A model generated the notes under the pieces. It saw only the letters and a program-made list of their open reading frames with translations. It was not told the DNA's origin and did not search any database. Below are positions 40,080 to 43,998 of a stretch of 64,000 nt of DNA, in pieces (position 1 is the first letter of the stretch; each line of letters begins with the position of its first letter). Source of the stretch: Gemmobacter caeni (GTDB lineage: Bacteria > Pseudomonadota > Alphaproteobacteria > Rhodobacterales > Rhodobacteraceae); contig NZ_QBKP01000002.1 of assembly GCF_003054195.1 (NCBI RefSeq), forward strand, positions 64,664 through 128,663, written 5' to 3'. A program made the position numbers and the translations under genes.

Positions 40080-41366
40080 ATGACCGCCCAGACCCTCATG
40101 TACGTCCTGACGGACGCCAACGCGAACAACAACAAGTTCTGGGAGATCAGCCGGGACGAGACGGGCCGGGTCAGCACCCGCAACGGCCGGGTCGGGACCG
40201 CGGGACAGCACCGCGTGCTCGGCGCCGGGGACGCCCTCTTCCACGCGAAGATCCGCGAGAAGGAGCGGAAGGGCTACAAGCGGGTCGAGGTGCTCGGTCA
40301 GCCTTCCGGGCCGGGCGGGGTCGACAAGGCGGAGCTGATCGGGGCCGCGGAGGCGCAGATCGGCCGCGGGGACCCGGTGATCAGCGCGCTGGTCCGCCAG
40401 CTCGCCGAGATCAACCGCCACCAGATCATCGCCGCCTCCGGCGGCCAGATGAGCGTGGACCTGGCCACCGGGATCGTCTCCACCCCGGTGGGCGTGGTGA
40501 CCCTGAGCAACATCCGGCGCGCCCGCGATCTCCTGATCCGGATCGAGCCGCTCGTCCGGTCCGGCGACTTCGACAGCCCGGACTTCCTGACCCCGCTCGA
40601 GGAGTACCTGATGCTGGTCCCCCAGAAGGTGGGGACGAGACGGGGCTGGCACCGGGACTTCCTCGCCGCAACGGACGCGCTCGCCCGCCAGGGGACCTTC
40701 CTCGATCAGCTCGAGGGGTCGATCGAGATCGCCGAGGACCGGTTGCGAAAAACGCGCGAATCGGAGACCGGCTCCGCCGAGGCGCCGAGGCTCTTCGACG
40801 TGTCCATGCGGGTCTCCGAGGACCCGGGCCTTCGCGCCCGGATCCTCGCCTTCTTCCAGGCGGGCCGTCACGCGAAACACGCCTCCTCGAACCTGCGCGT
40901 CGCCCGGATCTTCGAGGTGACCCTCGGGGACATGGATCGCCAGTATCGCGAGGACGGGCTCAAGGTCGGCGGGGTGAAGGAGCTCTGGCACGGGACCCGG
41001 GCCCATAACCTCCTGTCCATCCTGAGGAGCGGGCTGATCGTTCCCCCCGAGAACGGGTCGATCCATGTCACGGGCCGGATGTTCGGGAACGGGGTCTATT
41101 TCTCCGACCAGTCCACCAAATCCCTGAACTACGCGGCCGGGTACTGGGACGGAAAGGTCTCCGAGGAACGCTGCTTCATGTTCCTCGCGGACGTCGCCAT
41201 GGGCCGGCCCTGGCACCCGGACCGGACCGGCGCCTCCGTGAAGCCGCCCGCCGGTTACGACTCCGTCTTCGCCCGCGGCGGGCAGGACCGGGTCCTGAAC
41301 AACGAGATGATCGTCTACCGCACCTCACAGGTGAACCTGAAATACCTCGTGGAATTCGAAAAATGA
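40080..41366 (+). CDS. WGR-domain poly(ADP-ribose) polymerase (PARP)
   Basis: The 428-aa protein has the full PARP1-type core. Residues 5-72 are a WGR domain (NNNKFWEISRDETGRV, then NGRVGTAGQ, with Asn where the name-giving Trp usually stands). About 85-215 is a helical PARP regulatory-like domain (TPVGVVTLSNIRRARDLLI), and about 265-428 the ADP-ribosyltransferase. The catalytic triad is His304 (LWHGTRAHN), Tyr340 (GNGVYFSD) and Glu409 (NNEMIVY). PARPs use NAD+ to modify proteins or DNA ends and are triggered by DNA breaks. The gene starts a coupled operon with an unknown gene and NAD+-dependent ligase. Confidence 0.93.
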   Translation: MTAQTLMYVLTDANANNNKFWEISRDETGRVSTRNGRVGTAGQHRVLGAGDALFHAKIREKERKGYKRVEVLGQPSGPGGVDKAELIGAAEAQIGRGDPVISALVRQLAEINRHQIIAASGGQMSVDLATGIVSTPVGVVTLSNIRRARDLLIRIEPLVRSGDFDSPDFLTPLEEYLMLVPQKVGTRRGWHRDFLAATDALARQGTFLDQLEGSIEIAEDRLRKTRESETGSAEAPRLFDVSMRVSEDPGLRARILAFFQAGRHAKHASSNLRVARIFEVTLGDMDRQYREDGLKVGGVKELWHGTRAHNLLSILRSGLIVPPENGSIHVTGRMFGNGVYFSDQSTKSLNYAAGYWDGKVSEERCFMFLADVAMGRPWHPDRTGASVKPPAGYDSVFARGGQDRVLNNEMIVYRTSQVNLKYLVEFEK

Positions 41367-41380
41367 AAAAGGAGACCGGA

Positions 41381-41920
41381 ATGGATACCAAGCACAGCTT
41401 CATCGCGGAGGTCAGCCCGGAGATCCTGATGATCGACCCGTCCGGACGCCTGACCGCCCTCGCCGGGCCGCACCTCGCCCTGGAGGGGATCCGGGCCGCG
41501 GACCGGGTTCAGGAGCTGCGCGGGGCGGCGAAGACCGTCCCGGCGCTGGCGCAGGGCGCCCTGGGCGATCACGCGGAGGACCGCCGCGAGGAGGCGGTGC
41601 TCCTCTACTACCGGACCCCGAACGGCCGCCCGTCCCGGACCGACCTCTCCCGTGCGGCGCAGGTGATCGCGAGGAGCGCGCTGCGCGATCCGGTCTCGAA
41701 CGGGGAGGCGGAGATCCGGGTCAGCGGGACCCGCGCGGTCGTCTACCCGCGCCGGGTCGCCGCGGAGGCGGGCTATGCGGTCCTCCTGGTCTCAACCCGG
41801 GTCTGGTACAACGAGAACCGGTCCGTCCTGCACTTCCCGGCCACCCCGGAGCAGCGTAAGGCGATGCTCGACGACATCAACGCCCGCCTGCTGACCGGGG
41901 AAGTGAGCCTGCCCAGATGA
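41381..41920 (+). CDS. Unknown protein encoded between PARP and DNA ligase
   Basis: ATG 41381 follows AAAGGAGACCGG and is preferred over ATG 41363, which overlaps the PARP stop. The 179-aa protein begins with [20 protein letters not shown] and has an alpha/beta pattern; [20 protein letters not shown] and [18 protein letters not shown] are the most distinctive parts. No family was recognised. Its stop overlaps the ligase start (ATGA at 41917-41920), so it is made together with PARP and ligase and may act on ADP-ribose or on nicked DNA. That is inference from context. Confidence 0.65.
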
Positions 41921-43998
41921 GTGACGTGACCCCGACTGACGCCGACCGTCACCGCGCGCTGACCGCGCAGCTCCGCGCGGCGGAGGAGGCCTATCACCTG
42001 CGCGATGACCCGGTCATCTCCGACGCGGAGTATGACGGCCTGCGCGCGGAGCTGCGCGCGATCGAGGCGCGCGACCCGGCCCTCCCTGCGGACCGGCCCG
42101 TGGGCTTCGCCCCCGCGGACGGGTTCGGCAAGATCCGGCACGCGAAACGGATGATGTCGCTCGCCAACGCATTTCAGATGGGGGACGTGGACGCGTTCCA
42201 GGAGGCGATCGCCGCTCATCTGGGCCGGGCCCCGGGCGGCTGGGAGCCGGTGACGGCGGAGCTGAAGATCGACGGGCTCTCCCTCTCGCTGCGCTATGAG
42301 CGGGGTCTGCTCGTGCACGCCGCGACCCGCGGCGACGGGGAGGTGGGGGAGGAGGTGACCGCGAACGCGCGCACGATCCGGGACATCCCGCAAACCATCC
42401 CGGACGCGCCGGAGGTCCTGGAGGTCCGGGGCGAGGTCTACATGTCCCACGCCGATTTTGCGGAGCTGAACGCGGCCCTCACCGCGCGGGGCGAGAGGCC
42501 GCTCGCCAACCCGCGCAACGCGGCCGCGGGGAGCCTGCGCCAGATCGATCCTGAGAAGACCAGGGCCCGTAAGCTCTCCTTCTTCGCCTACGGGGTGGGG
42601 GAGATCTCCGCCCCCGTCGCGAGGACCCGCAGCGAACAGCTGACGGCCCTGCGGGGGATGGGGTTCAGTACCCCCTCCCCGTTCCGGCTCTGCAAGACTC
42701 GGCAGGATCTCGAGGCCTTCTATAATGACGTCCTGAAACGCCGGGCCCTCCTGGGGTTCGACATCGACGGGGTCGTCTACAAGGTGGACGATCTGGCGCT
42801 CGAGGACCGGCTCGGGGCCCGCTCCACCACCCCTCGCTGGGCGGTGGCGCATAAGTTCCCGGCGGAGACCGCCTGGACGCGGCTCCTGGCGATTGAGGTG
42901 CAGGTGGGCCGGACCGGGGCGATCTCACCGGTGGCCCGGCTCGCCCCGGTGACCGTGGGCGGGGTGGTCGTCTCCAACGCGACCCTGCACAACGCGGACT
43001 ATATCGCGGGGGTGGATTCCGCCGGCGCCGTCATCCGGGACGGGAAGGACATCCGGGAGGGGGACCTGGTCTCGATCTTCCGGGCCGGGGACGTGATCCC
43101 GAAGGTGGGGGACGTGGATCTCGCGGAGCGTCCGATCTGGGCGAGGCCGTTCCGCTTCCCGGACACCTGCCCCGGCTGCGGATCCGCGGTGGTGCGCGCC
43201 GCGGGGGACGCCGCGCATCGCTGCACGGGCGGGCTCGGCTGCGACGCGCAGATCGTTGAGCGACTCAAGCACCTGGTCAGCCGGGACGCGCTGGACGTGG
43301 ACGGGCTCGGGGCGACCCTGGTGGAGGAGCTCTACGCGGACGGCTGGGTCCGGGCCCCGGCGGACCTGTTCCGCCTCCCCCTCACCCACGGGGACGGGTC
43401 CGACGCGCCCCTCTCCGGCCGGGACGGGCTCGGGGAGCGCTCCGCCGGCAAGCTCTTCTCGGCGATCGAGGCGGCGCGTACCCGCCCGCTCGACCGGGCG
43501 ATCTTCGCGATGGGGATCCCGCTGGTGGGGGCGAGCGTGGCCAAGCTCCTGGCCCGGGAGGCGGGCAGCCTGGGGGGGCTCGTGGGGATGATCGACGCGG
43601 CCGCGACGGACCCGGCGGCCCGTGACCGGATCCTCGCGCTCGACGGGGTCGGGGACCGGATCCTCGCCTCCCTCCTCGAGGCGTTCGCCCCGGGCCCGAA
43701 CCGGGACCTCCTCATCGGCCTGATCGGGGAGCTGACCCCGACCGCGCCGGACCGGCCGGCCGCGGACGGCCCCCTCACCGGCCTGACCGTCGTCTTCACC
43801 GGGACGCTGACCCGGATGGGGCGCAAGGAGGCGCAGCTGATCGCGGAGCGGGCGGGCGCCAAGGTGTCCGGCTCCGTCTCCGCGAAAACGAGCCTTCTCG
43901 TCTGCGGGGAGGCGGCCGGGTCCAAGGCCGAGAAGGCCCGCAGCCTCGGGGTCCGGGTGATCAGCGAGGCGGCGTTTCTTGAACTGGTAGGAGGCTGA
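41917..43998 (+). CDS. ligA: NAD+-dependent DNA ligase LigA
   Basis: The 693-aa protein is complete. The N-terminal Ia domain includes [11 protein letters not shown] for NAD+ binding, the adenylation motif is [10 protein letters not shown] with Lys117, and the OB fold contains HKFPAE and [16 protein letters not shown] four-cysteine zinc finger (CPGCG ... CTGGLGC), HhH repeats ([14 protein letters not shown]) and a C-terminal BRCT domain ([20 protein letters not shown]) follow in order. It seals nicks using NAD+ as AMP donor. It is presumably a second copy besides the chromosomal enzyme, and it is translationally coupled to the PARP operon, whose enzyme uses the same cofactor and the same DNA substrate. 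Confidence 0.96.

Follow-up and report, generated by a model that had tools for sequence, protein, structure and literature searches.

Why should a bacterial replicon carry a eukaryote-like poly(ADP-ribose) polymerase (PARP) gene in one tight cluster with a DNA ligase gene? The question is raised by a locus of Gemmobacter caeni in a 64,000-nucleotide stretch, hereafter the window, of contig NZ_QBKP01000002.1 (positions 64,664 to 128,663 of the forward strand, assembly GCF_003054195.1); the contig is referred to as C2. Here a PARP gene, a small gene and a gene for the NAD+-dependent DNA ligase LigA follow one another on the same strand. The domains, predicted fold and catalytic residues, the coupling of the genes, the second LigA of the genome and the recurrent linkage of PARP-family genes with ligase genes are direct observations. 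The coupling of a PARP on a large plasmid to a small protein and a spare LigA, together with similar PARP and ligase pairings in some large phages, points to cooperation of this rare bacterial PARP with enzymes that join DNA. So compact a three-gene unit makes the role of bacterial and phage PARPs testable; it would also mean that mobile elements carry a repair partnership of PARP and ligase resembling that of eukaryotes. No report of PARP-ligase gene linkage in bacteria or phages was found in the literature searched, whose scope did not extend to most subscription papers.

An earlier note, made from the DNA letters, had described the first protein as a complete WGR-PARP with an H-Y-E triad, and this is confirmed. 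It matches the Pfam PARP (93.7 bits, E 1.4e-26) and WGR (36.8 bits, cut-off 22, E 4.3e-9) families over their cut-offs, and H304, Y340 and E409 are invariant in alignments of 20 and of 24 sequences, each including the window protein. The AlphaFold2 model, built from 24 sequences, has a mean predicted local distance difference test score (pLDDT) of 83.8; its best Foldseek match is a complex of PARP1 with a DNA break (7s6m_B, E 9.2e-25), with a TM score of 0.72 by query length to PARP1 4dqy_C and with PARP2 also among the best matches. By sequence, PARP2 is the nearest solved relative (phmmer E 4.8e-19). In the helical-domain region the model places helices at residues 86-228, and the alignment with PARP2 as well as the structural alignments with PARP1 and PARP2 run through it.

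The ligase is likewise complete, as had been claimed. It scores 638.0 bits with TIGR00575 (cut-off 444.45) and 713.6 bits with NF005932 (cut-off 369); the Pfam adenylation, OB, zinc-finger and BRCT domains are over cut-off, and the HhH and Ia domains below. Residues 15-692 align with E. coli LigA (2owo), and counting from this alignment gives K117 as the KxDG lysine and cysteines at C418, C421, C436 and C442. Two PADLOC PDC-S48 models also match the protein, in its BRCT end only. This LigA is the second copy of the genome, being 54% identical to the other on contig C9. In a tree of 21 LigAs it groups, on a longer branch, with the C9 copy, Paracoccus and Pseudorhodobacter (SH-like approximate likelihood-ratio test, SH-aLRT, 99), i.e. 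with alphaproteobacterial LigAs and apart from those of other PARP plasmids. Since the nearest PARP found belongs to a Variovorax plasmid (51% identity), the two genes have separate histories and were probably brought together in the lineage of the window, where the pairing seems to have been assembled separately.

The gene between them corresponds to the 179-residue unknown of the earlier note, as the ATG at 41381 gives exactly this length. An in-frame ATG at 41363 overlaps the PARP stop codon (ATGA) and would extend the protein to 185 residues, a form with a codon score of 62.7. The shorter form with a 14-base gap after the PARP stop is favored because AGGAG stands before its ATG. Of the "ATGA overlaps or tight spacing" proposed earlier, the 4-base overlap therefore holds at the second junction, where LigA starts inside the middle-gene stop, whereas the first appears to be tight spacing with an overlap only possible. 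There is no terminator-like match on the + strand in 39800-44400, and the single promoter-like match in this interval lies inside LigA, so that one transcript is plausible; the coupled operon of the earlier note stands as an operon-like layout. The small protein has no match in Pfam, NCBIfam, PADLOC or PDB, and its single-sequence AlphaFold2 model is unusable (pLDDT 34.5). Neither scans of viral contigs, plasmids and phages nor the fetched PARP loci yielded a usable relative; among 101 genomes (its own and relatives) only two chance-level matches besides itself were obtained (E 0.003 and 0.008). It is probably an accessory factor or a substrate.

The earlier assignment to an accessory replicon is supported by C2 itself. 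This contig of 446,545 bp carries conjugation genes, including those for a MobA-type relaxase and type IV secretion proteins. A family scan of 10 proteins, picked by eye from 400 called, revealed this relaxase, TrbE/VirB4-like, TraG-like and T2SSE-like proteins together with RecJ, UvrD, a UmuC-type polymerase, a topoisomerase and a DnaG-type zinc ribbon. Judging from these genes and the LigA tree, we regard C2 as probably a conjugative megaplasmid or a chromid belonging to a Paracoccaceae-like bacterium. In the collections searched, PARP is mostly a gene of such very large mobile replicons. Homologues occur in 20 of 72,556 plasmid records (302,005 to 1,168,067 bp) and in 19 of 50,697 phage records, of which the smallest has 137,240 bp and 6 of the 19 cover at least 80% of the query; two overlapping scans of viral contigs gave 102 and 103 PARP-related stretches, 80 being kept from each. 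Among cellular genomes, the window's own was the only match in 390 of the order (E 0.001) and, at E 1e-20, in sets of 398 from the phylum and 385 from the class, these samples overlapping. A pattern scan of genome contigs gave one relative, in Clostridium porci, and no ligase was found in its flanks. PARP has been reported in other bacteria too, according to the part of PMC5966428 consulted.

The linkage with ligases recurs on these replicons. Of the 20 PARP plasmid records found, 12 besides the window contig were searched over their whole length, and LigA is present on 11 of these, split over two frames in one case; the 12th, from Tsukamurella, shows no LigA or ATP-ligase match, although LigA does occur on a further plasmid record from that species. 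All six PARP phages searched whole (of 19) encode a DNA ligase, LigA in three and an ATP-type enzyme in three. LigA as such is found in 190 of the 72,556 plasmid records of all sizes, so that the comparison is not size-matched; an evenly spaced sample of 60 from the 190 contains 29 records of 300-1200 kb and 5 PARP plasmids. A relative of the IcmB-like protein of C2 is found in 3,765 plasmid records, against 190 for LigA, implying that a shared conjugation backbone alone is insufficient to explain the linkage. About 32% of jumbo phages have LigA, as stated in the consulted part of PMC9503650.

At shorter range, 80 dereplicated loci outside the window were compared. The number of loci with a same-strand DNA ligase is 6 at up to 1 kb from PARP, 9 at up to 2.5 kb and 19 at up to 5 kb; within 5 kb, an RNA ligase is present in 13 and any ligase in 21. 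On the PARP tree including the window, 20 of 75 scorable loci have a DNA ligase within 5 kb, a pattern that requires at least 11 changes. The near partner is LigA in the window and at loci L037 and L051, and an ATP-ligase at the others. Of the DNA-ligase frames in a first set of 66 loci, 17 lie at a distance of 0-5 kb and one at 5-9 kb (L084 is counted twice and more flank is available at 0-5 kb), a contrast that is weak because most of them belong to one clade. The exact trio was found nowhere beyond the window in the searches made. The co-occurrence that the earlier note had set as a check thus fails in its strict form, with this small protein and LigA, but the looser order PARP, small protein, DNA ligase recurs: with an ATP-ligase in the Lightbulbvirus Cellulophaga phages phi17:2_18 and phi4:1, and on two phage contigs, L159 and L162, with PARPs that share 39% and 37% identity with that of the window. 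The phage small proteins between PARP and ligase are not detectably related to that of the window. The window trio is one case of a broader association between PARP and ligase genes that spans megaplasmids and large phages.

Ligases are also prominent among the PARP neighbors by family, leading in one of two sets. Around 66 dereplicated PARPs, 449 same-strand genes encoding 120-700 aa were listed up to 4 kb away, and 246 of them were scanned in two sets (130 and 116). As these were chosen by hand, mostly longer or nearer, with several distal ligases and many short genes omitted, the counts are lower bounds. Among the top 25 families listed for each set, the second is led by RNA ligase (at least 10) and DNA ligase (at least 5), and the first by ATP-grasp R2K (at least 5 for each of two models), with T4-type RNA ligase at least 3, RNA ligase at least 2, ATP DNA ligase at least 2 and LigA at least 1. 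Furthermore, C2 encodes a 371-aa WGR-ligase-like fusion (C2 160799-161914, - strand; L029 12139-13251), in which WGR is detected by a PARP-derived profile (E 9.1e-7) and the Pfam DNA-ligase and WGR matches are below cut-offs. On the PARP plasmid of Variovorax it has a full-length relative, in which Pfam WGR and ATP-dependent DNA ligase are both over cut-offs; none of five genomes of the same genus has a full-length fusion. A WGR-like N-terminus noticed by eye in phage ligases of the L016/L159/L162/L163 type was dropped, as profile comparison gave 40% probability over 25 columns; the WGR profile, in a search that covered L016 among these four, did not pick up its ligase.

We propose that the operon is a replicon-borne DNA-end repair unit, in which a break-activated ADP-ribosyltransferase would serve end-sealing by the ligase; we give this an even chance of being right. 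The WGR domain of a PARP2/3-like enzyme would bind a nick or break and the putative helical domain would be released, upon which the ADP-ribosyltransferase (ART) domain may transfer ADP-ribose from NAD+ to the PARP itself, to a neighbor or to the DNA end. LigA, the extra copy beside that of C9, would then seal the break. The benefit may lie in maintaining so large a replicon, perhaps also in mending the nicks that conjugation introduces. Among the readings considered, a PARP-ligase DNA-end unit is the best supported because of LigA on 11 of 12 PARP plasmids, the repeated linkage with DNA and RNA ligases, and WGR-ligase fusions on two replicons. The dedicated break-repair or ADP-ribosylation unit of the earlier note is hence partly supported: it is favored by linkage and fusions, and disfavored by a small protein for which the searches made gave no relative beyond chance level and by a trio found only in the window.

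Several observations weigh against such a unit. The Trp of the WGR motif is a DNA end-stacking contact; in the window PARP it is replaced by Asn, with G36 and R37 retained in the alignment, which counts against the standard contact. In bacterial PARPs this position is mostly Y, then W or F, as reported in the part of PMC5966428 consulted. The Pfam PARP regulatory domain (PARP_reg) has no match in the window PARP. The distance between PARP and LigA is about 22-33 kb in plasmids W01, W02 and W05, about 67 kb in W17 and over 100 kb in the other 7 of the 11 LigA-bearing PARP plasmids, and 61 of the 80 loci, including the nearest relatives of the window PARP, have no DNA ligase within 5 kb (6 of them with a shortened flank). 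Just one of the 18 other PARP records was found to contain the WGR-ligase over its full length. Phages group their replication and repair genes in any case, and two control scans with phage genes yielded 1 and 3 loci, too few for a baseline. Finally, the genome has no match to the macrodomain, ADP-ribosylglycohydrolase or microbial poly(ADP-ribose) glycohydrolase (PARG) families, so that an ordinary reversible ADP-ribosylation cycle is not evident. Of the 18 other PARP records, 12 match the macrodomain (11 over cut-off) and 4 match microbial PARG. Near PARP itself, the macrodomain match at L051 scores 21.3, marginally under the Pfam cut-off of 22, and that at L097 was not confirmed by Pfam. 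On the LigA-less Tsukamurella plasmid, a gene of the ADP-ribosylglycohydrolase family lies 5 kb from PARP (L011 14205-15167).

A first alternative is clustering without partnership: very large replicons would come equipped for their own replication and repair, with LigA as a spare ligase for replication and PARP beside it through the usual grouping of such genes. C2 is indeed rich in replication and repair genes, the nearest PARP relatives lack an adjacent ligase, the PARP-LigA gap on other PARP plasmids is at least 22 kb, and the exact trio was found only in the window. As the linkage rates lack a size-matched control and most loci are without a near DNA ligase, clustering stays the main null. 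We nevertheless consider it unlikely, since the placements are separate and involve two DNA-ligase classes as well as RNA ligases, a small gene stands between PARP and ligase in several cases, and WGR and ligase are fused.

An equally unlikely reading is that the PARP modifies host proteins such as RNA polymerase, nucleases or defence proteins for the mobile element, like T4 Alt/ModA, with the ligase merely a neighbor. It would suit a gene found on plasmids and phages yet in only 1 of 390 genomes of the order. However, the T4 Alt/Mod-type ADP-ribosyltransferases are of a different type from WGR-bearing DNA-dependent PARPs, and the window PARP has the WGR domain and the architecture of the latter; nor is repeated ligase linkage expected from this reading. 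In its favor, the consulted part of PMC7824862 proposes host-protein modification for jumbo-phage PARPs, with XacN1 as an example, and that of PMC9503650 places phage PARTs among macromolecule-modifying ADP-ribosyltransferases.

A bolder idea, which we hold to be very unlikely, is that bacterial and phage WGR-PARPs are polynucleotide end-activating enzymes: by analogy with PARP3, ADP-ribose would be placed on a 5'-phosphate at a nick or gap, and an uncharged partner ligase would seal it. An ADP-ribosylated 5' end would carry a pyrophosphate and resemble the adenylated ligase intermediate. Such chemistry would account for the mixed partners, LigA here and ATP-ligases and RNA ligases elsewhere, and for the eraser-free genome, though 12 of 18 other PARP records hold a macrodomain. 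Human PARP3 ADP-ribosylates DNA 5' ends in vitro. When gapped DNA modified by PARP3 was given to ligases (T4, Mth, Pfu and human) in an assay designed to lack ATP, all of them sealed it, leaving an abasic-like residue; the ligases named in the consulted part of this report (PMC5843604) do not include NAD+-dependent ones. PMC8053099, also consulted in part, is a further source for the PARP3 chemistry underlying ADP-ribose-primed ligation.

The features of the window are collected in Table 1.

Table 1. Features of the window (positions counted from its first nucleotide)
Feature	Position	Strand	Evidence
PARP homologue of 428 aa with WGR, putative helical and ART domains; triad H304, Y340, E409	40080..41366	+	Pfam, alignment, AlphaFold2 model, Foldseek
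ORFan, 179 aa (185 aa from overlapping ATG at 41363)	41381..41920	+	codon score, AGGAG site
Complete NAD+-dependent DNA ligase LigA, 693 aa	41917..43998	+	TIGR00575, NF005932, Pfam, 2owo alignment
ATGA overlap, middle-gene stop / LigA start	41917..41920	+	sequence
tRNA-Gly(CCC)	8808-8881	-	
Hma-type defence system: HmaA helicase and HmaB methylase, then DUF499 and Swt1-HEPN protein	17397-27556		PADLOC E 0 for both HmaA and HmaB
DUF4011/AAA helicase/MTES_1575 nuclease protein, 1560 aa	27584-32266		
Staphylococcal-nuclease-like protein	39473-39886		leader-like start by eye

Among the neighbors in the window, the staphylococcal-nuclease-like gene ends 193 bases upstream of PARP, and the 1560-aa protein directly follows the Hma genes, possibly as part of the same defence island; the tRNA-Gly stands on this plasmid-like contig as well. 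At the other PARP loci, a small-protein family, winged-helix-like by eye, lies within 1 kb downstream of the phage PARP in 17 of the 80 dereplicated loci (L036, L156, L159, L162, L163 and others), and the window small protein is not detectably related to it. Some phages have the order ATP DNA ligase, RNA-ligase-like gene, PARP (L055 5178-10221 and relatives), possibly a nucleic-acid repair cassette. A KptA RNA 2'-phosphotransferase gene directly follows PARP on the megaplasmid of Pseudomonas sp. FeN3W (L008 9388-9981), and SSB and Rad52-like genes adjoin the Variovorax megaplasmid PARP on the opposite strand (L006 9614-12483).

The Hma system, 12-23 kb upstream on the same contig, and the lack of matches to the three eraser families in the genome would fit a role in defence or abortive infection, in which broken invading DNA would trigger the PARP to consume NAD+ or to modify components of the phage, with LigA protecting the host. 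PADLOC has no match to the PARP or the small protein and the PARP family is itself present in large phages, which makes this very unlikely. The counter-defence role raised by the earlier note is without specific support, as PADLOC likewise gives no model hit for either protein.

Comparison with known systems places the proposed DNA-end repair unit among several partial counterparts. The jumbo phage XacN1 encodes a full-length homologue of the window PARP (BBA65562.1, 40.1% identity), but its LigA is far from its PARP, and the proposal made for jumbo-phage PARPs is host-protein modification (PMC7824862, consulted in part). The Lightbulbvirus phages phi17:2_18 and phi4:1 share the order PARP, small protein, DNA ligase, but their ligase is ATP-dependent and followed by a DNA methylase, and their small protein is not detectably related. 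The PARPs of Herpetosiphon aurantiacus and C. difficile CD160 are also WGR-type bacterial enzymes, reported to be DNA-dependent by automodification; their hosts have PARG, whereas in the window genome no eraser was found and LigA is coupled (PMC5966428, consulted in part; the words "ligase" and "plasmid" are absent from its main text). A further counterpart is the pair PARP2 and PARP3, the DNA-break-dependent ADP-ribosyltransferases, with WGR, a helical domain (putative in the window PARP) and ART in the same order, the same H-Y-E triad and a model that fits DNA-bound PARP1 and PARP2. Unlike them, the window PARP is bacterial, resides on a plasmid-like replicon, has Asn in place of Trp in its WGR motif and is coupled to a bacterial ligase gene.

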